A DNA stretch of 64,000 nt from Burkholderia puraquae (GTDB lineage Bacteria; Pseudomonadota; Gammaproteobacteria; Burkholderiales; Burkholderiaceae): NCBI RefSeq assembly GCF_002099195.1, contig NZ_NBYX01000015.1, positions 1 to 64,000 on the forward strand, in the 5' to 3' direction. Shown here one piece after another: positions 19,833 to 32,355 of this stretch. The notes beneath the pieces were generated by a model. The model had not been told where the DNA came from, ran no database searches, and saw only the letters and a program-made list of their open reading frames with translations. Within the stretch, counting starts at the first letter, position 1. Each line of letters opens with the position of its first letter. The position numbers and the translations under genes were made by a program.

Positions 19833-20954
19833 ATGAAATGGATCGCATCGACCACCCTCGCATGCGCGGCCGGCATGTGCGGCAACGCATTCGCGCAAAG
19901 CTCGGTCACGCTTTACGGCGTCATCGACGAATCGATTCAGTACACGCACAACACCGGCGGCGCGAGCAACCAGGTCAAGCTGCAGTCGGGGCAGATGTCC
20001 GTCAGCCAGTGGGGGCTGAAAGGCACGGAGGATCTCGGCGGCGGCCTGAGCGCGCTGTTCAACCTGCAGAACGGCTTCAACGTGAACAGCGGCAAGATGA
20101 GCGGCGGCCTGCTGTTCGGGCGCAAGGCGTTCGTCGGGCTGGCTGGCGGATTCGGCACGGTGACGGCCGGCCGTCAGCAGGATACGTTGCAGGATCTGGT
20201 GTTGCCGGTGCAGGGCAACAATTTCCTCGAGTACTTCACGGCGCCCGGCGACGTCGACAATGCCGACGGCTCGGTTCGCAACAGCAATGCGGTCAAATGG
20301 GTGAGCCCGTCGTGGGGCGGCCTTCAGGTGGCCGCGATGTACGGGTTCGGCGGCGTGGCCGGCTCGGTCGGCTCGGGGCAGGCGTACAACGCGGCGATGT
20401 CGTACACGGCCGGGCCGTTGACCGTCGCGGCCGGTTACGCGCATCTGGACAACGGGAACGCGGTGCTGTCGACGCGCGGCACAAGCAGTGCCGATACGAT
20501 TTTCCTGTCGCCGGTCAACAACGCGTACGCGACGGCCAGCGCGGTGAATATCGCGCGCGCCGGCGTGAGCTACGTGCTCGGCGCATTCACGGTGGGCGGA
20601 CACTACAGTTATGCCGAATACCTGCGCGACGGGAATTCGACGTTCGGGACGGCCGAGCGCTACAACAACGGCTCGGTGTTCGTCGCGTGGCAGGCTTCGT
20701 CCGCGCTGCTGTTCGAGACGGGTTACAACTACCTGAAATCGCACGGCGATTCGTCGGCCACGTACCAGCAGGTCACGCTCGCGGCCGACTACGCGCTCAG
20801 CAAGCGCACCGATCTCTACGCGACGATGAGCTACGGGCACGCGTCGGGCAGCAACGGCGCGGGCCCCGCGCAGGCGGTGATCGCGGACGCCTACGTCGAT
20901 GGCGGCAAGGCGACCCAGGAGCTTGCGATCATCGGCATTCGCCACCGATTCTGA
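19833..20954 (+). CDS. outer-membrane porin (OmpC/Gram-negative porin family)
   Basis: 373 residues with a signal peptide ending near NAFAQ (residue 20) and the Burkholderia porin start SSVTLYGVIDESIQYTHN. Alternating beta-strand pattern, GLKGTEDLGGGLSALFNLQ, GRKAFVGLAGGFGTVTAGRQ, and a terminal aromatic GIRHRF are standard for trimeric 16-strand porins. It sits directly after the ureohydrolase and probably lets the same substrate cross the outer membrane. Ribosome site AGGAGAG is close to the start. The frame opens earlier (19773), but the signal peptide fixes the start at 19833. Confidence 0.95.
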   Translation: MKWIASTTLACAAGMCGNAFAQSSVTLYGVIDESIQYTHNTGGASNQVKLQSGQMSVSQWGLKGTEDLGGGLSALFNLQNGFNVNSGKMSGGLLFGRKAFVGLAGGFGTVTAGRQQDTLQDLVLPVQGNNFLEYFTAPGDVDNADGSVRNSNAVKWVSPSWGGLQVAAMYGFGGVAGSVGSGQAYNAAMSYTAGPLTVAAGYAHLDNGNAVLSTRGTSSADTIFLSPVNNAYATASAVNIARAGVSYVLGAFTVGGHYSYAEYLRDGNSTFGTAERYNNGSVFVAWQASSALLFETGYNYLKSHGDSSATYQQVTLAADYALSKRTDLYATMSYGHASGSNGAGPAQAVIADAYVDGGKATQELAIIGIRHRF

Positions 20955-20970
20955 TCGAATGCGCCGCGCA

Positions 20971-21927
20971 TCATGGCAGCGGCGCGCCCCATGCCGCCGT
21001 GACGTCGCCGCCGAGCCGCCATTCGCTGAACGGGCGGCGCGGCGCGATGATCGCCGGCAGGCGGCGATCGTGAAAGCGCGCGTAGTACGGCTCGACCCAG
21101 CTCAGCTCGTCGCGGAACGTCCACGGAAACAGGTCCTGCTTGATCGGCGTGATCTTCCTGAAACTCGCGGGATCTTCCACCGCGTCGATCACGAAGCTCG
21201 CGAGGCGGCCGATCGCACCGTCGTTTTCTCGGTAGAGATCGATGTTGCGCCGCTGAACGAGTTCGGCCGCGAACACGAGCGGCAGCAGCGCAAAGGTGTG
21301 ATAGTGGAGCGCGCGGTCGCCGCGCTTGACCTCGCGCTCGAGCGAACCGTCCGGGCGGATGTCGCGAATGCCTTCGCGCACCCGCGGCAAGCCGGAATCG
21401 ATCAGGCTTGCATTGTCGGTGACGGTGCCGATCGCGATCAGATTGAGCCCTGCCCAGTACACGAGATTGTTGTGCAGGTGGTTGATCGCTTCCGCATTGC
21501 GGGTCGCGATCGCGATGCGTTCGAGCCATGGGTCGATCGCGTTGAATTTCCCGCGGTTCGCGTCGCGCAACCCGCGCGGCATGCGCAGGATCACCATCGC
21601 GAAATCGGTGCCGGCCCACGAGCGCTCGTAGTACCCCTGATAACCGGAGATGGTACCCATCAACGCATCCGATTGCGCCCAGCTGTCGAGCAGCGTCAAT
21701 GCGCACGACCAGTCGCCGTGATCGGCCGCCGTGTTCCGCTTGGCGACGAAGTCGCGCATCGGCTTCACGTCGCGCGCATAACCGGTGGGGTCGTCGTAGT
21801 AGCCGGGCGGGTCGATCGTCCGCACGGGGGAAGGCACTTCGCATGCGTGGCTGGCGGAGGCCGTGCCGATGAGTGTACCGGCGGCGAACAGGACGGCGAA
21901 CAAGGTTCGAACGGAACGGGCGCGCAT
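20971..21927 (-). CDS. alginate lyase family protein (PL5-like), catalytic His missing
   Basis: 318 residues with a signal peptide ending near SASHAC (about residue 29). The alpha/alpha-barrel mannuronate-lyase pattern is seen at AINHLHNNLVYWAGLNL (about 145-160) and GDRALHYHTFALLPL (about 205-220). The Arg and Tyr of the second segment match the conserved catalytic RALxYHNxAL. In known PL5 lyases the first segment reads NNHxYWA and its His is catalytic; here it reads NNLVYWA, so that His is Leu. Activity on alginate is therefore doubtful. It converges with the porin, 16 bp apart, and stands alone. Confidence 0.75.
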   Translation of the reverse strand: MRARSVRTLFAVLFAAGTLIGTASASHACEVPSPVRTIDPPGYYDDPTGYARDVKPMRDFVAKRNTAADHGDWSCALTLLDSWAQSDALMGTISGYQGYYERSWAGTDFAMVILRMPRGLRDANRGKFNAIDPWLERIAIATRNAEAINHLHNNLVYWAGLNLIAIGTVTDNASLIDSGLPRVREGIRDIRPDGSLEREVKRGDRALHYHTFALLPLVFAAELVQRRNIDLYRENDGAIGRLASFVIDAVEDPASFRKITPIKQDLFPWTFRDELSWVEPYYARFHDRRLPAIIAPRRPFSEWRLGGDVTAAWGAPLP

Positions 21928-22121
21928 GGGGGGCTCGACGGTGATGTTCCGGCTGGACGCTGGACCGAAGGCAGTCTAGCGCCCGAGGCTTTCGCCCGCC
22001 TTTCCGGGGCGAGCCGGTGCCGCCGGCCCGGCAGGACACCCGTGCGACGCATGGCGATCGTGTCGGCTTCGCATGACAGGCAATACGCTATTCTGTCGTC
22101 CTCAACCGCCAGCCCGATCTA

Positions 22122-23612
22122 ATGAAGCGTCCGTCGTTTTCCACCCAACTCGTCCTGCTCTGGGCACTCGTCGCGGCGCTGTGCGCGACGCTGGTCGCGG
22201 TCGTCTGGGTCACGGCGAGTTCCGCCGAGAGTCAGCAGGTGGCCGGCGCGAAGGCCGCCGGCGCGTCGGCATGCGAGGCGGTCGCGTCGCGTTACAGCGC
22301 GTCTTCCGCGTCGCCAGGCGCCGGGCCCTCCCCGGAGCTGATGCACGCGATCCTCGACATCGTGCTCTCCCGCGCGCCCGACATGGAGGGCGGGTTCTGG
22401 ATGCCCGGCGCCGCCCCTGCGGCGAGCGGCTTTCTCGCATATTCCTTTCCCACCTACCAGGGCAGCGGCGTCAAACACGACGTTCCGGAAGCGGAAACAC
22501 CGCTGATCGTCCGCACGCTGCGCGCCGCGGCCGCGACGCATGCCGCGACGGCGAACGTCGTCGAAGGCGCGCAGGATGCCGTGATCGCGGCGGCCTGCCC
22601 GGTTCGCGGCGGATCGGGGCTGTACGTGTGGATGCTGACGCGTGCGCGCCCGCCGCTGGGCCGGCACGGCGAGTTGCTGGCCACGGGCCTCGCGGCCGTA
22701 CTCGCCGTGATTCTGGCGATCGCGGCGGCGCTGGCCGTGGCGCTGCGCCGATGGAAGCGCAATCTCGCGCGGATCGAGAGCGGGCTGGGGCCCGACGGTC
22801 GCGAGCATCACCTGCCGTACGTCGGCGAGCCCGATCTCGATCGCGTCATCGATGCGTTCAACGAGCGGGCGCGGCGCGCGGACCTGCTGCAACAGCAGGC
22901 CGACGAACTGCGCACGCGCCTCGCGCAGGCCGAACGCTTCGGCATGCTGGGGAAGCTTGCCGCGCAGGTCGCGCACGAGATTCGCAATCCGATGGGCGCG
23001 ATGCGGCTGAAGGCGGAAAACGCGCTGGCCGGCGATGGCCGGCGGCAGCAGGACGCGCTGCGCGTGATCCTCGCGCAGATCGAGCGCATCGATGCGCAAT
23101 TGTCGAGCCTGCTCGCGTTGACGCAGCCGGTGCGCCCGCATGCGACACGGGTCGACGTCGATGCGTGGCTCGCGCAGGTCGTCGACGCGCACCGCGAACT
23201 GGCGCAGCGGCAAGCGACCGACCTGACGCTGTCGCTCGCGGGGCAGGGCGAACGGCTTGCGTGGCCGTCGGATTTTCCCGCGTTCGATCCCGACCAGATG
23301 CGGCGGGCGCTCGACAATCTGCTGCTCAACGCGCTGCACCACGCGGGCGACGGCGGCGCGGTCACGCTCGCCGCCGAGCGGCGCGCGTTCGCCGGGCGCG
23401 ACTGGCTGTGCATCACCGTGTCGGACAGCGGCCCCGGCGTGCCGGCCGCGCAGCGCGAGCGTATTTTCGAGCCGTTCGTGACGGGCCGCGCGGATGGCAC
23501 GGGCCTCGGCCTTGCCGTCGTCCGCGAAGTGGCGGCGGCGCACGGCGGGCACGCGCGCCTCGACGGGGGCGCCGCATTCGTGATTGAAATTCCATGGCAA
23601 ACATCCTCATAG
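22122..23612 (+). CDS. NtrB-type sensor histidine kinase
   Basis: 496 residues. Membrane segments lie at about 9-31 and 185-208 and bracket a periplasmic sensor region without a domain I can name. A HAMP-like linker follows, then the HisKA motif AAQVAHEIRNPMGAM with phospho-acceptor His285, and an ATPase domain with DNLLLNALHHA (N box), SDSGPGVP (G1) and GTGLGLAVV (G2). It should phosphorylate the sigma-54 activator encoded next, which it overlaps by 19 bp. The divergent lyase gene ends the gap upstream (21928-22121). Confidence 0.93.
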   Translation: MKRPSFSTQLVLLWALVAALCATLVAVVWVTASSAESQQVAGAKAAGASACEAVASRYSASSASPGAGPSPELMHAILDIVLSRAPDMEGGFWMPGAAPAASGFLAYSFPTYQGSGVKHDVPEAETPLIVRTLRAAAATHAATANVVEGAQDAVIAAACPVRGGSGLYVWMLTRARPPLGRHGELLATGLAAVLAVILAIAAALAVALRRWKRNLARIESGLGPDGREHHLPYVGEPDLDRVIDAFNERARRADLLQQQADELRTRLAQAERFGMLGKLAAQVAHEIRNPMGAMRLKAENALAGDGRRQQDALRVILAQIERIDAQLSSLLALTQPVRPHATRVDVDAWLAQVVDAHRELAQRQATDLTLSLAGQGERLAWPSDFPAFDPDQMRRALDNLLLNALHHAGDGGAVTLAAERRAFAGRDWLCITVSDSGPGVPAAQRERIFEPFVTGRADGTGLGLAVVREVAAAHGGHARLDGGAAFVIEIPWQTSS

Positions 23613-24970
23613 TCGACGACGACGCGGCCTTTCGCGACAGCCTCGCCGAAACGCTCGCCGATCTCGGTCATCGGGCCGTCGAGGCTGCAACCGGCCCGGC
23701 CGCGCTCAGCACGCTGCGCGACGGCGGTGGCGTCGAATGCATCTTTCTGGATTTCCGCCTGCCGGATCTGGACGGGCTGGCCGTGCTCGCGCAACTGCGC
23801 GACGATCCCGCGCTGGCCGCGATTCCGGTCGTCATGCTGACGGCCCATGCGACCAGCGACAACACGATCGAAGCGATGCGGCTCGGCGCATTCGATCACC
23901 TGACGAAGCCGATCGGGCGTCGCGACATCGCGCAACTGCTCGAACGCATCGTGTCGGCGAATCAGCCGCCCGCGCTCACGCCGCGCGACAGCGATTTCGC
24001 GGGCGAACCGTCAGCGGACCGACCGCGACTGCTGGGCGTGAGCGCCGCGATGCGCGACGTGCAAAAGCAGGTCGGCCGCGCCGCGATGAGCGACGCGACC
24101 GTGCTCCTGACCGGCGAGACGGGCACGGGCAAGGAGGTGGCGGCCCGCGTGCTGCATGCGGCATCGGCCCGGCATGCGGAGCCGTTCGTCGCCGTGAACT
24201 GCGCGGCCATCCCGGCCGACCTGCTCGAAAGCGAGTTGTTCGGCCATCGTCGCGGCGCGTTCACGGGCGCGCATGCCGATCGCGCGGGCCGCCTCGTCGA
24301 GGCCGACGGCGGCACGCTCTTTCTCGACGAGATCGGCGACATGCCCGCCGCGATGCAGGCGAAGCTGCTGCGCGCGCTGCAGGAGCGCCAGGTGATGCCG
24401 CTCGGCGCAGATCGCGCCACGGCAATCGACATTCGCGTCGTGGCCGCGACGCACCGCGACCTCGTCGCGGCCGTCGCGAACGGCACGTTCCGCGAAGACC
24501 TCTTCTATCGGCTGAACGTCATTCCGCTGCACCTGCCGCCGCTCGCGGAGCGTGTGGCCGACATCCTTCCGCTCGCCGCGCATTTCCTGCGCAACGCGGC
24601 GGGCATGCGCGCGCTGCATCTGACGAACGACGCCCAGCGCGCGCTGCTCGATCACCGCTGGCCGGGCAATGTGCGGGAACTGCGCAACGTGATGGAGCGG
24701 GCGGCCGCGCTCGCCCCCGGGCCGGCCGTCAGCGCGGCCGATCTCGGCCTGGCCGCCGTGCCGGCGCGTGAATCGGTCTCCGATGCGGTGCCGGCGCACC
24801 TGCTCGACATGTCGCTGCCCGATGCGCTGGCGACGGTCGAGCGCGCGGCGATCCTGCGCGCGCTCGAGCGCGCGAACGGCAACCGCGCGGAAGCCGCGAG
24901 GCAGCTCGGCATCGGCCGCCAGTCGCTCTATGCGCGCATGGCGAATCTCGGGATCGAGCGCGACGACTAG
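23594..24970 (+). CDS. NtrC-type sigma-54-dependent response regulator
   Basis: 458 residues in three parts. The receiver domain (1-120) has acidic residues VDDD and phospho-acceptor Asp53 in FLDFRLPD. The AAA+ domain (about 148-380) has Walker A GETGTGKE at 174-181, the sigma-54 contact loop GAFTGA at 221-226, and Walker [12 protein letters not shown]. The C-terminal Fis-type helix-turn-helix is [20 protein letters not shown] near 430-450. It is coupled to the kinase gene. A sigma-54 promoter with two palindromes lies directly downstream and is its obvious target. Confidence 0.95.
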
Positions 24971-24985
24971 GCGTGCCGTTTCGAC

Positions 24986-25002
24986 TGTCGGGAATGCCGA
25001 CA
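24986..25002. promoter_or_regulatory. upstream activator site 1, TGTCGG-N5-CCGACA
   Basis: Perfect 6-bp arms TGTCGG and CCGACA around GAATG. A near-identical copy lies 32 bp downstream (centre to centre), about three helical turns, so both face the same side of DNA. They sit 84-116 bp before the -12 element of the sigma-54 promoter at 25086, the usual position for NtrC-type enhancer sites. Confidence 0.8.
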
Positions 25003-25017
25003 TCGGGTGAAGCGACG

Positions 25018-25034
25018 TGTCGGGAAATCCGACA
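25018..25034. promoter_or_regulatory. upstream activator site 2, TGTCGG-N5-CCGACA
   Basis: Second copy of the palindrome with the same arms around GAAAT. Thirteen of thirteen arm and flanking bases TGTCGGGAA/CCGACA agree with the first copy except for the central spacer. The pair suggests cooperative binding of the response regulator encoded at 23594. Confidence 0.8.
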
Positions 25035-25085
25035 TGTTTCGCGCGCGTCGTCGTTCGGCGCATGGCTACGCGGGGCGTCGCGGGT

Positions 25086-25100
25086 TGGCACGGGTATTGC
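25086..25100 (+). promoter_or_regulatory. sigma-54 (-24/-12) promoter
   Basis: TGGCACGGGTATTGC matches the consensus TGGCACG-N4-TTGC exactly, with GG at 25087-25088 and GC at 25099-25100. Transcription should begin near 25111-25112. This rules out the ATG at 25109 as the start of the next gene and supports 25139. Confidence 0.9.
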
Positions 25101-25138
25101 GGATATCGATGCATCGCAACCCGTCGCCGGAGCCCGTC

Positions 25139-25906
25139 ATGAAGTCGTACCTGCCTGTCGTTCGATCGCGGCCGCCGTGCCGTGCCGCCGTGCGCCGCTC
25201 GTATCGCATGCTCTGCGCTGCCGCACTCGTTGCCGTCGCAACGGTCAGCCTGGCGCAGGTGCCGCCGGCGCCGCGCGCGGACGACCCGGCCGGCGCCATG
25301 CCGCCGCCTCCTGCTCCTCCTCGGCCTCGCGCGCCTGTGCCTGCCGTACCCGGAAACGACACCGCCTCGGATGCGCTGGTGTCCGGCACGCTGTCGCGCC
25401 TGACGATCAATCCGGAAGGCACCGTCGACGGCTTCGTGCTCACCGACGGCACGCTCGTCCGCCTGCCGCCGCATCTCGGTTCGCAACTGACTGCGCTCGT
25501 GAAAACGGGCGACCGCGTGACGGTAGCCGGCGAACGACGCGTCGACGATGAAATCCGTGCCCGCGTAGTCCGCAACGACGGCACCGGCGCGTCGCTGTCC
25601 GATCAGCCGCACGCGCCGCCGCCCATGCTGCGCGGCGTCAACCTTGCCCGCCTGAGCGTGTCCGGCGTCGTGCGCCGCGTGACGCGCGCGCCGCGCGGCG
25701 AGCCGGACGGTGTGATGCTCGACAGCGGGGCGATCGTCAAGCTGACCGTTCCGGCCGCCCAGCAATTCGGCGCGCTGCTCGTCCCCGGCGAGCGCGTGGC
25801 CGCGGTCGGCTACGGCACGCGCAACGCGTACGGCGAAGCGCTGCAGGCGACGGCGTTCGGCGCGCCGGGCCATGTCGTGAATCTCTATGACGATGTCGCG
25901 CGCTGA
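25139..25906 (+). CDS. secreted repeat protein of unknown function, sigma-54 controlled
   Basis: 255 residues. A long signal peptide (positive start, hydrophobic core AAALVAVATVSLAQ) ends near residue 40, followed by a proline-rich linker. Two repeat units follow: unit 1 (about 80-155) contains VSGTLSRLTINPEGTVDGFVL and RLPPHLGSQLTAL, and unit 2 (about 175-245) contains VSGVVRRVTRAPRGEPDGVML. Each has short beta-strand patterns and a terminal GDRVTVAG or GERVAAVG, suggesting small OB-like barrels. The protein encoded next has the same units without the signal. The family is unknown to me. Confidence 0.8.
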   Translation: MKSYLPVVRSRPPCRAAVRRSYRMLCAAALVAVATVSLAQVPPAPRADDPAGAMPPPPAPPRPRAPVPAVPGNDTASDALVSGTLSRLTINPEGTVDGFVLTDGTLVRLPPHLGSQLTALVKTGDRVTVAGERRVDDEIRARVVRNDGTGASLSDQPHAPPPMLRGVNLARLSVSGVVRRVTRAPRGEPDGVMLDSGAIVKLTVPAAQQFGALLVPGERVAAVGYGTRNAYGEALQATAFGAPGHVVNLYDDVAR

Positions 25907-25948
25907 GCGCGCGGCGCTTTTCCCCAATCCATCGAAAGGAGTCCTGCC

Positions 25949-26497
25949 ATGCATTGGATCGATCCCGCCTGCCTGCCCGAAACGCGCGGCCGCGTCACGC
26001 AGTTCCTGCTCAATCCGCACGGAGACATCGACGGCCTGATCCTGAACGGCGACCTGCAGGTTCACGTGCCGCCGCATCTGGGCCGCGAACTGGCGCGCCG
26101 TGTCGCGGTTGGCGACCGCATCCGCGTGCGGGGCGTCAAGCCGCGTCGCGCGGCGATGATCGCGGCCGTGCAACTGACCGGCCGCGACGGCGTCGACATC
26201 GTCGACGACGGGCCCGCGCACGCTGCACCGCCGAAGCCGACGCACGCCGCTCGAAAACCGATGGAATCGAGCGGCGAAGTCGCGTTCGCGCTGCACGGCC
26301 CGAAAGGCGAGGTGAACGGCGCGTTGCTGACGAGCGGCGTCGCGTTGCGGGTGCCGCCGCATGCGGCTGAAGCGCTGCACGATTATCTGCGTCCCGGTGT
26401 CCATGTGCAGGCGTGGGGGCAAGGTGTCGTCACGCCGCACGGCACGACGCTCGACGTGAGCGAGATCGCCGAGCTCGTCGATGCGGATGCCGAATGA
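25949..26497 (+). CDS. cytoplasmic paralogue of the upstream repeat protein
   Basis: 182 residues with AAAGGAG before the ATG. It carries two copies of the unit seen in the previous protein: TRGRVTQFLLNPHGDIDGLIL with VHVPPHLGRELARRVAVGDR, and SSGEVAFALHGPKGEVNGALL with LRVPPHAAEALHDYLRPG. The shared core is G.(V/L)..(L/F)..(P)xG..(D/N)G..L, then VPPH. No signal peptide is seen, so one paralogue is exported and this one is probably not. The two genes are 42 bp apart and presumably one sigma-54 transcript. Function unknown; the OB-like fold is a guess. Confidence 0.78.
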   Translation: MHWIDPACLPETRGRVTQFLLNPHGDIDGLILNGDLQVHVPPHLGRELARRVAVGDRIRVRGVKPRRAAMIAAVQLTGRDGVDIVDDGPAHAAPPKPTHAARKPMESSGEVAFALHGPKGEVNGALLTSGVALRVPPHAAEALHDYLRPGVHVQAWGQGVVTPHGTTLDVSEIAELVDADAE

Positions 26498-26518
26498 TTG
26501 AGCGACGGTGAGGCGGCC

Positions 26519-27778
26519 ATGAGACCGGCGCGCGCGCTCGAAGCGCTCAACTTCTTCCTGGCCGACGTGCAGGCCGGCATCGGCCCGTTCATCGGCGTCA
26601 TCCTGCTGTCGCGCGGCTGGGGCGCCGATGCGATCGGCTCGGTCATGACGCTGGCGGGGCTCGCCGCGATGGCCGCGACGCCGTTGGCCGGCGCGCTCGT
26701 CGATGCGGTGCGCGCGAAGCGGGCGCTGATCGTCGTGGCGACCGCGGTGACGGCGCTTGCGTCGCTGGCGATGATGTTCGTCCACGGCTATCCGGCGGTG
26801 GCGGCGTCGCAGATCGTGGCGGCGGTCAGCGGCGCGGTGCTCGCGCCGGCCGCCGCGGGCGTGACGCTCGGCATCGTGCGCCGGCAGGGTTTCGACCGGC
26901 AGTTCGGGCGCAACCAGATGGCGAACCACGCCGGCAACGTCGCCGGTGCGGCGCTCGCCGGGTGGCTCGGCTGGCATGTCGGATTCGACGCGGTGTTCGC
27001 GCTGGTCGGCGTGTTCACGGTCCTCGCCATCGTGAGCACGCTGGCGATCCCCGGGCACGCGATCGATCACGCGTCCGCACGGGGTCTCGATCCTGCCGGT
27101 GCCGCACCGGGAACGGTTGCTGCGCATCCGCAGGCGTCGGACGCGGCGTCGCGCGTCGGCGGCCTGCGCACGCTCGCCGAGAATCGGCCGCTGGTGCTGC
27201 TCGGCGCGTCGCTCGCGCTGTTTCATCTCGGCAACGCCGCGATGCTGCCGCTCTACGGGATGGGCGTCGTCGTCACGCATCGCAGCAACGCGAGCGCATT
27301 CACCGCACAGACGATCGTCATCGCGCAGTGCGTGATGATCGCGGCGGCGTGGCTCGCGCCCCGGCTGATTCGCGCGCACGGTTACTGGCGGGTGCTGCTG
27401 TTCTCGTACCTCGTGCTGCCGGTGCGCGGGCTGGTCGCCGCGGCGTGGATGAGCGAAGCGGGCGTGTGGCCGGTGCAGGTGCTCGACGGCATCGGCGCCG
27501 GGCTGCAAAGCGTGGTCGTGCCCGCGCTCGTCGTTCACCTGCTGCACGGTTCCGGCCGCGTGAATGCCGGGCAGGGCGCCGTCGCGACCGCGCAGGGCAT
27601 CGGCGCGGCGCTCAGTCCCGTGCTGGGCGGCGTGCTCGCGCAGCACTTCGGCTATCCGGCCGCGTTCGTCGTGCTGGGCGCCGTGTCGACAGGCTCGCTC
27701 GCGCTGTGGCTCGGTCATGCACGCTCGCTGAGCAGCGTGTGCGGCAAGCCCGCGGATCTATCGGCGACATCGTCGTGA
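26519..27778 (+). CDS. MFS transporter
   Basis: 419 residues, about twelve membrane segments. The start ARALEALNFFLADVQAGIGPFIGVILLSRGW is typical of a group of Burkholderia MFS proteins of unknown substrate. GALVDAVRAKRALIV corresponds to the loop 2-3 motif. The ATG at 26519 with GTGAGG upstream is preferred over a TTG at 26498. It lies 21 bp after the repeat protein and is likely co-transcribed. Export of a small molecule is possible. Confidence 0.85.
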   Translation: MRPARALEALNFFLADVQAGIGPFIGVILLSRGWGADAIGSVMTLAGLAAMAATPLAGALVDAVRAKRALIVVATAVTALASLAMMFVHGYPAVAASQIVAAVSGAVLAPAAAGVTLGIVRRQGFDRQFGRNQMANHAGNVAGAALAGWLGWHVGFDAVFALVGVFTVLAIVSTLAIPGHAIDHASARGLDPAGAAPGTVAAHPQASDAASRVGGLRTLAENRPLVLLGASLALFHLGNAAMLPLYGMGVVVTHRSNASAFTAQTIVIAQCVMIAAAWLAPRLIRAHGYWRVLLFSYLVLPVRGLVAAAWMSEAGVWPVQVLDGIGAGLQSVVVPALVVHLLHGSGRVNAGQGAVATAQGIGAALSPVLGGVLAQHFGYPAAFVVLGAVSTGSLALWLGHARSLSSVCGKPADLSATSS

Positions 27779-27815
27779 AGGCGATGTCGATTCCCATCCC
27801 TCCGTCCACTTGCCC

Positions 27816-29069
27816 ATGAATCCTGTTTCGCTTGCCTGGCTGATTTCCGCGCTCGCCACCGCGGGCGTCATCACGCGTCCGTTCGGTTGGCCCGAGGCCA
27901 CATGGGCCGTGAGCGGCGCGCTGCTGCTGGTCGTGTTGAACCTGTTGCCTGCTGCCCAGGCGCTGGACGCCGTCGCGAAAGGCGGCGACGTGTACCTCTT
28001 CCTGACGGGCATGATGCTGCTGTCGGAGGCGGCCCATCGCGAGGGGCTGTTCGACTGGGTCGCGACGCACGTCGTGAATCTCGCGCAGGGCTCGCCGCGG
28101 CGGTTGTTCGCGCTGATCTACGGCGTCGGCGTCGTCACCACGGTGTTCCTGTCGAACGATGCGACCGCCGTCGTGCTGACGCCCGCGGTCCTTGCCGCCG
28201 CGCGCCGCGCGAAGGCCGACCCGATGCCGCTGCTGTACAGCTGCGCGCTCGTCGCCAATGCCGCGAGTTTCGTGCTGCCGATTTCGAATCCGGCGAACCT
28301 GGTGCTGTACGGCGCGCACATGCCGGCGCTCGGCGTATGGCTCGCGCACTTCGCGGCGCCGTCCGTCGCGTCGATCGTCTGCACGTTCGTGATGCTGCGG
28401 ATCGTGCAGCGACGTGCGCTGTCCGGCCGTTGCGAGTCCGGGCTGCCGGTGCAGCCGCTGACGCGCGGCGGGCGCATCGCGCTGGCGGGCATCGCCGCGA
28501 CGGCCGTCGCGCTGATGGCGGTGTCGGTCGCCGATCGCCCGCTCGGGTTGCCGACCGCGCTGGCGGGCGTCGTCACGGTCGCGTGCGTCGCGATGCGGGA
28601 TCGAGCGGCGTGCGTGCCGATCGTTCGCGCGATTTCATGGAGCGTGTTGCCGCTCGTGGCGGGGCTGTTCGTCGTCGTCGAGACGCTCGACCGGACCGGC
28701 GCGGTGCGCGCGCTGGCGGGCCTGCTGCACATGCTGATGCAAAGCGGCGAGCACGTCGCCGCGGCCGTGGCCGGCGTCGCGGTCGCGCTGGTGTCGAACG
28801 GGGTCAACAACCTGCCCGCCGGGCTGATCGCGAGTTCGACGATCCACGCCGCGCACAGCCCGCAAACGGTGGTCGACGCGATTCTGATCGGCGTGGATCT
28901 TGGCCCGAACCTGTCGATCACCGGATCGCTCGCGACGATCCTGTGGCTGGCGGCGATCCGGCGCGAAGGGCTGCGAGTCGGTTTCCGCGAATTTCTCGCG
29001 GTCGGCGCGTGCGTGATGCCGCCTGCGGTGCTGCTCGCGCTGGGCGCGCGGTTCGTGATCGGCGGCTGA
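27816..29069 (+). CDS. ArsB/NhaD/CitMHS-type anion permease
   Basis: 417 residues with about eleven membrane segments. FLSNDATAVVLTPAVLAAARRAK near 108-130 and FVLPISNPANLVLYG near 150 are hallmark motifs of the ArsB/NhaD ion-transporter superfamily, and a second inverted motif VSNGVNNLPAGLIAS lies near 328. Substrate could be arsenite or an organic anion; no other ars genes lie nearby. The start is ATG 27816. It ends the transcription unit and meets the TonB receptor gene tail to tail. Confidence 0.82.
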   Translation: MNPVSLAWLISALATAGVITRPFGWPEATWAVSGALLLVVLNLLPAAQALDAVAKGGDVYLFLTGMMLLSEAAHREGLFDWVATHVVNLAQGSPRRLFALIYGVGVVTTVFLSNDATAVVLTPAVLAAARRAKADPMPLLYSCALVANAASFVLPISNPANLVLYGAHMPALGVWLAHFAAPSVASIVCTFVMLRIVQRRALSGRCESGLPVQPLTRGGRIALAGIAATAVALMAVSVADRPLGLPTALAGVVTVACVAMRDRAACVPIVRAISWSVLPLVAGLFVVVETLDRTGAVRALAGLLHMLMQSGEHVAAAVAGVAVALVSNGVNNLPAGLIASSTIHAAHSPQTVVDAILIGVDLGPNLSITGSLATILWLAAIRREGLRVGFREFLAVGACVMPPAVLLALGARFVIGG

Positions 29070-29084
29070 CGCGCGAGGCGCGTC
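29068..29084. terminator. hairpin between convergent transporter and receptor genes
   Basis: GACGCGC (29068-29074), loop GAG, GCGCGTC (29078-29084). It starts at the permease stop and lies 22 bp from the end of the receptor gene. No long T run is present, so it is a probable bidirectional but not classical terminator. Confidence 0.5.
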
Positions 29085-29105
29085 GCGTCAGCCGTCCCGG
29101 CCGCG

Positions 29106-31211
29106 CTAGAACGAGTACGCGAGCGACGCGAACAGGCTGCGCGGCGCGCCCGGCGTGACCCACAGGCTGTTGTACGAGCTGACGTAGGTGGTGCGATTGA
29201 ACAGGTTGTTCAGCACGACCGACGCACGCAGGTGCTTGTTGACCTGCACGTAGCCGTTGAGCTGCACGGTCGCGTAGGCCGGCAGTTCGAAGCCGTCCTG
29301 CGTGTTGGCCGTGTTGCCGGCGCGGCGCCCGACATAGATCACGCCGGCGCCGGCACCGGCCTTGTCCGCGAACGGCAGGGTGGTCTCGTACATCAGCAGC
29401 GCGCTGCCGCTCAGGCGCGGTACGTCGACGAGGCGCGAGCCGGGCGCGAGCACGGTATCGCGCGTGACCTCGGCGTCGACGTACGCGAAGTTCGCGATGC
29501 CGCGCAGGCCGTGCCCGAGGTCGCCGCTCCATTCGAATTCGACGCCGCGGCTGCGTACTTCGCCGGCCGCGCGCGAGAAGCCGGCATTCGCCGGATCGGC
29601 GGTGAGCACGTTGCGCTTGGTCACGTAGAACGCCGAGACGGTCGTGAGCGAGCGCGCGCCCGCCCATTTCGCGCCGGCTTCGTAGCCGTGGCCTTTCTCG
29701 GGATCGAACGCGTTGCCGCCGACGTCGGCGCCGTTGTTCGGCCGGAACGAATACGCGGTGTTCGCATAGAACGACCACGCGGGGCTCATTTCATACACGA
29801 CGCCGATACGCGGGCTCACCGCGGTCTGCAACTGGCTCGTCGTCACGCCCTTCAGGCGGTTGTCGATCGACTGGTGGAAGCGATCCCAGCGCAGCCCGGC
29901 CAGGATCTTCCAGTGCGGCCCGAACGCGAGCGTGTCCTGCGCGTAGACGCCTTGTCCGTCATCGCGTTCGAGCAGGTTGGTCGCGGTGCGCGGCGTCGGC
30001 GCGGGCTGGCCGTAGACCGGATCGAAGATGTCGATCGCATACGGCGCGGCGGCACTCGGCGTCGAGCGCGCGACGAACTGGTCGTAGTTGAAGCGATACG
30101 CGTCGACGCCCATCACGAGCGTATGGCCGATGCCGCCCGTGCGGAACGAGCCGGTGGTTTCGACGCGGCCTTGCAGGTCGTTCGAGTGAAACGCGACTTG
30201 CCGGTAGCGGCGCCATAGCGTGCGGCCGTCCGGCTGCAACGCGAATGCCTCGGACGAGCGCCCCGTCAGGTCGGTGTTGCGTTGCGCGACGCCCGCGTTG
30301 ATCGACCAGCTTGAATCGATGCGATGCTCGAGCGTGAACTGGTGGCCCGTGTTGCGCACGTCGTAATCGCCGTCGCGCGGCTCGCCGAGGAAGCGCGACG
30401 CGGGGATCACGCCGAGCTGGCCGTTGACCGCCAGCACGCCGCGATCGAGCGGCGCACGCTGACGCGCGCTCTCGAATTCGTAGTGGAGCGTCGTGTCCGC
30501 GCCGATGTCCCACGTGAACGACGGCGAGAACAGGTAGCGTTTGCTCGACACCGTGTCGCGGAAGCTGCCGTTGTTCTCGTTCATCGCGACGAAGCGGTAT
30601 GCGAGCGATTTCGTGACGGGGCCGGTCGAATCGAGCGTCTGGCGCAATGCGCCGTAGCTGCCGGCCGACACGCCGATGGTGTTCGCGCGCGCAAACTGCG
30701 GCTGCTTCGTCGTATAGCTGATGATCCCGCCCGGATCGCCGCGGCCATACAGCGCGGACGCGGGCCCCTTGAGCACTTCCATGCGCTCGAGGTTGACGGT
30801 GTCGCGCGGCACGCTCATCCCGCGATTCCACGAAAAGCCGTTGACCAGGTAGTCGGTGCCGGACGTGTTGCCGTCGCCGGCGAAGCCGCGCACCGCGTAG
30901 TTGTCCCACAGGCCGCCGAAGTTGTTCTGGCGCGACACGCCCGCGACCCAGTCGTAAAGATCGTCGCCGCGCGTGGCGGCCACGGTCTGGATCAGCTTCG
31001 TATCGACGCTGCTGACCGCGAACGGAATCTCCATCACGTCCGCCTCGCTGCGCGTCGCGCTCGTCGATTCGCGCGTGCGGAACGGCGCCGTCGCGCGTTG
31101 GGCGGACACCTCGATGGTGGGTAGCGCCGTTTCCTGCGCGTCGGCGGCGCCCATGCCGGCCGTGCCGACGACGATGGCCATCGGTGCGGCCGCCCAGTTC
31201 CTCCTGCTCAT
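29106..31211 (-). CDS. TonB-dependent siderophore receptor
   Basis: 701 residues. Signal peptide ends near AADAQE (about residue 26). The plug domain begins PTIEVSAQRA, with DDLYDWVAGVSRQNNFGGLWDNYAVRGF (about 85-112) and VEVLKGPASALYGRGDPGG-type residues near 145-165. A 22-strand barrel follows and ends in the aromatic ASLAYSF. This is the FhuA/FoxA class for ferric siderophores. The ATG at 31211 is preceded by a perfect AGGAGG. A Fur-like box at 31306-31326 fits iron repression. No siderophore synthesis or periplasmic uptake genes lie nearby. Confidence 0.94.
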   Translation of the reverse strand: MSRRNWAAAPMAIVVGTAGMGAADAQETALPTIEVSAQRATAPFRTRESTSATRSEADVMEIPFAVSSVDTKLIQTVAATRGDDLYDWVAGVSRQNNFGGLWDNYAVRGFAGDGNTSGTDYLVNGFSWNRGMSVPRDTVNLERMEVLKGPASALYGRGDPGGIISYTTKQPQFARANTIGVSAGSYGALRQTLDSTGPVTKSLAYRFVAMNENNGSFRDTVSSKRYLFSPSFTWDIGADTTLHYEFESARQRAPLDRGVLAVNGQLGVIPASRFLGEPRDGDYDVRNTGHQFTLEHRIDSSWSINAGVAQRNTDLTGRSSEAFALQPDGRTLWRRYRQVAFHSNDLQGRVETTGSFRTGGIGHTLVMGVDAYRFNYDQFVARSTPSAAAPYAIDIFDPVYGQPAPTPRTATNLLERDDGQGVYAQDTLAFGPHWKILAGLRWDRFHQSIDNRLKGVTTSQLQTAVSPRIGVVYEMSPAWSFYANTAYSFRPNNGADVGGNAFDPEKGHGYEAGAKWAGARSLTTVSAFYVTKRNVLTADPANAGFSRAAGEVRSRGVEFEWSGDLGHGLRGIANFAYVDAEVTRDTVLAPGSRLVDVPRLSGSALLMYETTLPFADKAGAGAGVIYVGRRAGNTANTQDGFELPAYATVQLNGYVQVNKHLRASVVLNNLFNRTTYVSSYNSLWVTPGAPRSLFASLAYSF

Positions 31212-31305
31212 ACCCCTCCTTTTTTGTGTGATTCGCGTTCGGGCACGGCGGGCGGCCTCGCGCCGACATCTGTGTTCCAAACAGTACATTTGCGCGGCAA
31301 TTTAA

Positions 31306-31326
31306 TGCAAATGAGAGGCATTTGCA
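31306..31326 (-). promoter_or_regulatory. Fur-like box upstream of the TonB receptor
   Basis: TGCAAATG (31306-31313), AGAGG, CATTTGCA (31319-31326): perfect 8-bp arms. The central 19 bases match 12 of 19 positions of the classical Fur consensus, including AATGA and CATT halves. It lies about 95 bp before the receptor start. It should repress the receptor when iron is plentiful. Confidence 0.75.
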
Positions 31327-31653
31327 ATCGTAATTTCAGGATGGGCGATGGGCAGGACCGCCGACGGGTGCGGCGATAGTCTCGGAAGATGTGGGGGCCC
31401 GGCTTACACGACATTCCGGGCTGCCGGAATCCGCTTCGCCGCGCGGCAAGTCGTCGATCGGCAATGTTCAGTTCGTCGCGTCTTGCGCCGTTCGATTTCC
31501 GCGAGTCGACGTCAACCGATGTAACGCCGGCGCGCGTCGCGGCACTTTTTTCGAATCACGCATCGACGGATTTCATGAAAATCGACGCCGTCCCGCCGTC
31601 GTGATGCCGTGCGTTTTCCAGTGACGACGAGCGTGCCGGTACCCATGCGCGGC
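31327..31653. other. gene-free stretch between receptor promoter and GntR gene end
   Basis: I see no convincing gene in this 327-bp stretch. Short open frames on the plus strand lack ribosome sites and protein-like composition. It contains one inverted repeat, ATTCCGG-GCTG-CCGGAAT at 31413-31430, which could be a terminator stem or a repetitive element unit. It cannot be assigned further. Confidence 0.4.
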
Positions 31654-32355
31654 TCAATCCGGATCGGCTTTCAGCCCACCCTCGATCCACCGCGCTTCCG
31701 ACGCGCGAAGATGCGCACGAATGGCCGTCTGCGCCGCGATCGGATCGCCGGCTTGCAATGCGAGCAGCACGTCCTCGTGCTCGCGCACGGCGGCCGTCCA
31801 CGTCTGCGGATTCTCCGCGTGGCCGCGCATCGCGGTCGCGATCGGGTCGTGGCGGCTGTCGAACAGCTCGCCGACGAAGCGGGTGAGCACCGAGTTGCCG
31901 GCGGCTTCCGCGATCAGCATGTGGAACTGCCGGTCGGCTTCGACCGGGGATTTGCCGGCCTCCGCGAGCCGCTTCATGCGCTGCACCGTGCGGCGCAGTC
32001 GTTCGAGCATCGCAGCCGTCATCCGCGCGGCGGCCAGTGCGGCGACGCTGCCTTCGACGGCCGCGCGAGCCTGCATCAATTCCGACGGACTGTCGCCGAG
32101 CGTGGCCATCGGGCCGACGGCGTCGGCCGCGGTGTCGCGCACATACACGCCGGAGCCCATCCGGATCTCGATCTGGCCGCCGATTTCCAGCGCGATCAGC
32201 GCCTCGCGAAGCGACGGACGCGATACGCCGAGCGTCAGCGCCAGCTCGCGCTCCGGCGGCAGCCGCTCGCCGATCGCGAATTCGCCCTGACGAATCAACG
32301 CGACGATCTGGGCCGCGACCGATTGGTAAAGCCGCTTGGGTTCTGTCGATTTCAT
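31654..32355 (-). CDS. GntR family regulator (FadR/FCD type) of the L-galactose-like operon
   Basis: 233 residues from the ATG at 32355. The N-terminal winged helix (RLYQSVAAQIVALIRQGEF, then ELALTLGVSRPSLREALIALEIGG) and the FCD ligand domain (ARAAVEGSVAALAA..., ADRQFHMLIAEAAGNSVL, HEDVLLAL) are clear. E. coli LgoR, which controls L-galactonate use, is also of the GntR type, so the context fits. It is divergent from the ABC-transporter operon, and two repeat sites lie between them (32495-32552). An open frame to 32412 is less likely to be used. Confidence 0.9.
   Translation of the reverse strand: MKSTEPKRLYQSVAAQIVALIRQGEFAIGERLPPERELALTLGVSRPSLREALIALEIGGQIEIRMGSGVYVRDTAADAVGPMATLGDSPSELMQARAAVEGSVAALAAARMTAAMLERLRRTVQRMKRLAEAGKSPVEADRQFHMLIAEAAGNSVLTRFVGELFDSRHDPIATAMRGHAENPQTWTAAVREHEDVLLALQAGDPIAAQTAIRAHLRASEARWIEGGLKADPD

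Follow-up and report, generated by a model that had tools for sequence, protein, structure and literature searches.

We analysed a 64,000-nucleotide (nt) stretch of Burkholderia puraquae DNA (contig NZ_NBYX01000015.1, positions 1–64,000, hereafter the window; source genome 8.1 Mb) containing a two-component system followed by genes that we take to be its output. On the plus strand, two genes overlapping by 19 bp encode a sensor histidine kinase (HK; 22122..23612), with HisKA and HATPase domains after an N-terminal sensor region, and an NtrC-type response regulator (RR; 23594..24970), with a REC domain, a sigma-54 AAA+ domain and a Fis helix-turn-helix. Downstream lie two putative regulator sites of the form TGTC-N9-GACA, site 1 (TGTCGGGAATGCCGACA, 24986..25002) and site 2 (TGTCGGGAAATCCGACA, 25018..25034), and a sigma-54 −24/−12 promoter on the plus strand (TGGCACGGGTATTGC, 25086..25100) with a predicted transcription start near 25111. 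Four co-directional plus-strand genes follow, separated by gaps of 42, 21 and 37 nt. They encode protein A (25139..25906), protein B of the MHWIDP family (25949..26497), an MFS transporter recognized by family match (26519..27778) and a permease of the ArsB/CitMHS superfamily, here called ArsB-like (27816..29069), whose relatives are annotated 'arsenic transporter' or 'anion transporter'. Both transporter genes are placed in the regulon on the evidence of relatives. An earlier note on this DNA had reported the palindromes, the −24/−12 site, the GAFTGA-bearing NtrC-type regulator and the paralogous pair A and B, and each lies where that note placed it.

Within the window, both regulator sites read TGTCGG-N5-CCGACA, with their centres 32 bp apart. 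They form paired dyads centred at approximately −117 and −85 from the predicted start, the centre of site 2 lying 60 bp 5′ of the T in the −24 element. As a sequence pattern, this corresponds to tandem sites 80–150 bp 5′ of a −24/−12 promoter. A palindrome search allowing one mismatch returned these two as the sole matches in the window, and two or more matches arose in 5 of 100 shuffles, a statistic that is weak on its own. The promoter is the only exact match to TGGCAC-N5-TTGC in the window; with one mismatch, four matches were seen against 4.6 expected, so the promoter alone is not significant at this scale. It becomes convincing because its position relative to the regulator sites is conserved in other genomes. 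Across the 8.1-Mb genome, the exact palindrome occurs at four places, two of them at this locus, whereas for the double site TGTC-N9-GACA-N2..18-TGTC-N9-GACA there is a single occurrence and no match to the control pattern. The same genome encodes one kinase matching the full-length HK profile at E ≤1e-30, while two others match its catalytic core only. One operator pair and one full-length kinase-family match fit the earlier proposal that A and B are a dedicated output of this kinase and regulator.

For comparison, we drew on a genome collection in which each species is represented once and kept 80 of 113 confirmed loci, each encoding a B relative. Fifty-eight of them hold two-component genes: 56 with the regulator directly upstream, one with broken frames (L035) and one with the two-component genes on the other side (L062). 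The site pair and the sigma-54 site precede the output genes in all 58. Loss of the palindromes from species that retain the genes had been named in advance as a result that would speak against the proposal, and no such loss appeared among the loci with two-component genes. Comparison of the regulator-to-A interval defined the conserved unit as TGTC-N9-GACA twice, then ATGGCAY-N5-TTGCA. The twin sites originally proposed are retained, while the TGTCGG arm assigned to them gives way to the shorter TGTC. All 56 loci with the regulator directly upstream carry the sigma-54 site with 0–2 mismatches, the promoters of L019, L065, L067 and L076 having two. As a separate observation, L035 is a decaying copy in which the kinase and regulator frames are split.

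For each locus, the best site pair 5′ of the sigma-54 site was taken and scored over 16 positions. Best pairs carry 0–4 mismatches, compared with an average of ~6 and minima of 2–4 in single-base shuffles of the same region. Spacing counts used 55 of the 56 loci, omitting L050, in which site 1 by eye has a 1-bp deletion; across these 55, the pair has no mismatch in 21, one in 22, two in 5, three in 6 and four in 1. Measured to the T of the −24 element, the centre of site 2 lies 60 bp away in 23 loci, 61 bp in 24 and 62 bp in 6, with outliers of 72 bp (L029) and 83 bp (L038); the search did not impose this distance. By contrast, the distance between the sites takes two forms, being 22 bp in 48 loci and 23 bp in 1, or 31 bp in 1 and 32 bp in 5. 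The longer form coincides exactly with L005–L010, which are Burkholderia proper. The 32-bp spacing that had been read from the window is thus particular to Burkholderia proper, and other relatives have 22 bp. Four relatives with 22-bp spacing still carry the older name Burkholderia (L020, L027, L061 and L069); in our judgement, they belong to Caballeronia or Paraburkholderia. With promoter distance and phase kept, the change from 22 to 31–32 bp amounts to one helical turn gained or lost. We know of no report of such a one-turn spacing switch between genera at a fixed promoter distance.

The unit follows the two-component genes. Among the 22 loci without such genes in the fetched stretch, it is present in two (L039 and L041, each with a contig end just upstream) and absent from 20, of which L043 and L053 are cut just upstream and are thus little informative. 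Of these 20, 13 have B alone, and the others have the MFS gene, A or both.

Genome-wide searches returned the operator chiefly at the same cassette. A search of 65 Burkholderia genomes located the exact pair, at 30–33 bp between centres, in 10 of them, always at the cassette and with no control match. Three further Burkholderia genomes with B (G049, G155 and G298) have the same layout with 1–3 mismatches; these appear to be conspecific with L006, L005 and L009. Searching 299 genomes of the family for the composite of operator and promoter in its 22-bp form yielded 40 sites in 34 genomes and no control matches. By coordinate comparison, 38 of the 40 lie at A, B, a divergent MFS gene or a moved ArsB-like gene. 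The remaining two belong to a sister two-component system (L184, 1272–8885, and L185; G164:C3 and G044:C2), where the same composite stands before a divergent MdtABC-like RND pump. In L184, the sister kinase and regulator are 41% and 56% identical to those of the present system.

Rearranged loci bear on the transporters, which the earlier note had listed as possible members of the same output. In 6 of the 80 loci (L034, L046, L059, L066, L068 and L076), the MFS and kinase genes are oriented divergently; each locus has an extra operator on the MFS side, accompanied in five by a sigma-54 site 59–63 bp away. L197 adds a seventh case: its divergent block of metallophosphoesterase, MFS, ArsB-like and DMT genes is preceded by an operator carrying two mismatches, with the promoter 61 bp away. 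Overall, the divergent transporter genes have the operator in 7/7 cases and the sigma-54 site at 59–63 bp in 6/7, although these cases come from related Paraburkholderia and Caballeronia and hence represent few independent events. Elsewhere in the 1.09 Mb of loci, the only extra operators with up to two mismatches lack a promoter: one lies upstream of the kinase gene in L029, the other within the L040 B gene. In genome G095, the ArsB-like permease lies ~90 kb from A and B, grouped with a metallophosphoesterase and a small YdcZ-type exporter under an operator and promoter of their own; on a Methylocystis plasmid, the OB gene is preceded by one operator and an MFS–anion transporter–DMT series by a second. 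These separate operators at divergent MFS and moved ArsB-like genes indicate that the transporters belong to the regulon, a firmer position than the 'may be' with which they had been introduced.

Several observations on the surroundings of the cassette can be added. A calcineurin-like metallophosphoesterase of ~370 amino acids is an optional member (L028, L029, L036, L039, L041, L058, L061, L148 and L197), and some of the cassettes bearing it also hold a YdcZ-type DMT exporter. An operator pair 5′ of the kinase gene was seen in L029 (at 2509) and L152 (at 8735), with a good sigma-54 site not nearby; autoregulation in one clade is possible. A Burkholderia cenocepacia plasmid (L195, 6869–8068) holds an ArsB-like copy that is 81% identical, with the match running from residue 61; genes for desuccinylase, cupin and semialdehyde dehydrogenase adjoin it. 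In the window, a TonB-dependent receptor gene on the minus strand (29106–31289) converges on the ArsB-like gene; its cluster occurs in 4 of 80 loci, placing it outside the cassette. Scans of the window gave no Rfam match at gathering score in 20000–32000. In 24900–29400, a single terminator-like site was seen, within the MFS gene, whereas shuffled sequence gave more; a sigma-70-like site was likewise seen once, on the opposite strand.

What the transporters carry, and in which direction, has more than one reading. The ArsB-like permease matches PF02040 (ArsB) at 81.3 bits, above the gathering score of 22.2, and among solved structures its closest match is a chain of an arsenical pump (E 8e-26). 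Together with two invariant cysteines in the kinase sensor region, C51 and C159, this could describe a true ArsB in an arsenite/antimonite resistance operon under an unusual regulator. We think this improbable: although the permease shares a superfamily with the ArsB arsenite pump, it falls far short of the NCBIfam ArsB cut-offs (155 vs 457 and 129.7 vs 415 bits), C51 and C159 could equally form a disulphide, and no arsR/arsC-type family was recognized among the recurrent neighbour clusters, which were inspected by eye with no dedicated search. The permease scores higher with CitMHS (140 bits) and also matches DASS anion symporters, as would suit uptake rather than export. DctBD and AtoSC induce transporters for sensed organic anions; likewise, a usable organic anion could here be sensed and its transporters induced, with A as a periplasmic ligand-binding helper. 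The top family matches of the kinase and regulator do include AtoS and AtoC. The kinase core, however, is nearest ZraS by profile, the sister kinase and regulator control an RND efflux pump, and no catabolic family recurs among the neighbours, the best-recurring other neighbour cluster being present in 13 of 80 loci. We consider uptake unlikely.

The two-component proteins themselves resemble a known pair without reaching its family cut-offs. RR exceeds the cut-offs for PF00072, PF00158 and PF02954 and contains GAFTGA, as expected of an NtrC-type sigma-54 response regulator. In a sequence-profile search, the HK core was closest to ZraS (E 2.7e-45), the next match having E 8e-38, but HK reached only 129 bits against the ZraS family cut-off of 479, and RR 357 bits against the ZraR cut-off of 760. 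The N-terminal membrane/extracytoplasmic region of HK has residues invariant in 43 sequences, namely C51, E89-G90-G91, W93, Y107, P110, Y112, K118 and C159. A structure model of HK was of low confidence (predicted local distance difference test score (pLDDT) 73.9, predicted template modelling score (pTM) 0.40), and its fold comparison spanned the kinase core.

Proteins A and B are paralogues (31% identity, E 2e-19), and the nearest named relatives of B come from Burkholderia contaminans and B. cenocepacia. A begins with a signal-peptide-like segment (SLA-Q), of which A39 and Q40 are invariant in 22 A-family sequences, A included; a Pro-rich linker and a double repeat homologous to B follow. 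B has no such start. From these features, read from the sequence rather than from a predictor, A is probably exported to the periplasm and B cytosolic, in keeping with the earlier suggestion that one product leaves the cytosol and the other stays. The structure check that had been recommended for the pair was run on B, whose predicted structure contains two OB domains, with a five-stranded barrel topology and a helix after strand 3; A would be a double OB-fold by homology to B. Searched against Pfam and NCBIfam at the thresholds used, A had no match, and its score for DUF5666 (PF18914) was 12.5 bits against a gathering score of 27, B not being listed for that family. Searches with its relatives gave DUF5666 matches for 14 of 22 A-family members at E ≤1 (best 2.1e-5) and, for 34 of 60 A/B members, matches to the OB-fold family PF01336 at E ≤0.1. 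An A/B alignment searched by sequence against solved structures gave no match below E 0.09. We also considered the histidines of B as a metal site on the basis of a 20-sequence alignment and dropped the idea; among 49 B members, only H2 (0.98) and H43 (1.0) reach at least 95%.

The B family also occurs as lone genes in varied contexts, lacking A, the two-component genes, the operator–promoter unit and the transporters (L012, L018, L022, L023, L032, L037, L040, L049, L052, L071, L073, L074 and L075). Genomes G055, G195 and G297 contain A/B-family matches with stop codons, that is, decaying copies.

A and B might themselves be the main output, acting in envelope or nucleic-acid stress protection as ZraP does for ZraSR, with the transporters as passengers. 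We regard this as unlikely, since transporters separated from A and B keep the operator and promoter, and OB-fold similarity shows no function; the apparent export of A also makes nucleic-acid binding unlikely for that protein.

The reading that we favour, and consider probable, is an inducible export cassette running from the sensor through the sigma-54 regulator to an A–B–MFS–ArsB-like operon. Through its extracytoplasmic region, the kinase would sense a signal at the envelope and then phosphorylate the NtrC-type regulator. The regulator would bind the two TGTC-N9-GACA sites on the same face of the DNA and activate the single sigma-54 promoter near 25086, from which A, B, MFS and ArsB-like genes would be transcribed as one operon. 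The output would then be an inducible export, or anion-clearing, cassette of two inner-membrane transporters with A (periplasm) and B (cytosol) as accessory proteins. Comparison across genomes brings out the operator grammar, its phase, its linkage to the regulator and the inclusion of both transporters; the phosphorelay, the operon mRNA, the protein locations and the direction of transport are what we infer from it. As far as comparison across Alpha- and Betaproteobacteria goes, the wiring appears well supported.

A number of points weigh against this reading. Support for the wiring is sequence comparison throughout, and many of the relative loci are kin rather than independent events. In L016 and L081–L084, four of them Bradyrhizobium, 1–6 of 100 shuffles equal the observed pair, so the evidence there is the distance, not the sequence match. 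Taken without the promoter, the 22-bp pair is less specific: 22 exact sites occur in 21 of the 299 genomes (15 at the cassette, 6 next to a different sigma-54 activator and 1 likely by chance), and the control pattern was matched in 4 genomes. The strict 22-bp composite occurs in 33 of the 66 genomes of the family with an A/B-family match, and the Burkholderia form in 10 (exactly in 7 and with 1–3 mismatches in 3); the other 23 lay outside this check. The transporters are not constant, with MFS in the fetched stretch of 52 and ArsB-like in 30 of the 58 loci with two-component genes, and neither in 6. The MFS-side operator of L059 lacks a well-placed promoter and lies closer to the kinase gene. 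Finally, MFS–ArsB-like pairs also exist without this regulator or A and B. The transporter block is found without the regulator in Sphingomonas, Acetobacter, Rhizobium and Spirosoma (in the last with MFS not directly beside), and it therefore resembles a module recruited to this switch.

In another setting, TGTC-N9-GACA-N5-TGTC-N9-GACA stands between a single-component sigma-54 activator of ~600 amino acids and a carboxylase-type operon (L150, L151 and L153, from G079, G296 and G281; likewise L124–L126, from G115, G152 and G131). Three of these six were read by eye and the other three as 3-kb stretches.

The system combines features of several known ones. With ZraPSR (HydHG) of Escherichia coli, a zinc and envelope-stress system with zraP as sigma-54 output, it shares a ZraS-like kinase core, an NtrC-type sigma-54 regulator and a very small regulon that includes a small protein acting, here putatively, in the envelope; ZraR targets include zraP, zraR, zraS and mgtA (PMC7657598). 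Tandem upstream activator sites, a −24/−12 promoter and an AAA+ GAFTGA regulator are common to NtrC-family promoters, from which the present one differs in its TGTC-N9-GACA site and in the switch between 22 and 32 bp at a fixed promoter distance. BaeSR-type systems control the MdtABC efflux pump, and BaeR is not a sigma-54 activator. The sister system recalls that arrangement in standing at an MdtABC-like pump, whereas the present cassette has MFS and ArsB-like transporters. The OB-fold proteins recall DUF5666, matched by the A family, and PF01336, matched by the A/B family, with A of the window itself below the DUF5666 cut-off.

Our literature search found no description of the cassette. Two papers on sigma-54 regulons do not mention it in the portions available (PMC5979394 and PMC12316311). 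The 'BiofilmReg' two-component operon of Burkholderia contaminans was considered and set aside, being, in the available part of its description, of OmpR/CreB type with a different gene order (PMC5192318).

A wider, tentative proposal treats A and B as a new type of export accessory, in which homologous double-OB-fold proteins on opposite faces of the inner membrane would share a ligand and either supply or shield the MFS and ArsB-like pair. The whole would be governed by a single helical-phase-locked sigma-54 switch, which would travel between replicons and bacterial classes as a plug-in cassette. On the favoured reading of an inducible export cassette, two orphan protein families gain a regulatory home and an export-linked context, and a small, cleanly testable sigma-54 regulon is defined. 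The natural 10-bp change in site spacing at constant promoter distance provides an evolutionary test of face-of-helix binding by NtrC-type activators, and the sister system ties the same sensor family to RND efflux. The same wiring appears to recur in related soil and plant bacteria, and knowing the signal could clarify how toxicants are sensed at the envelope in many plant- and soil-associated Burkholderiales and Bradyrhizobium.

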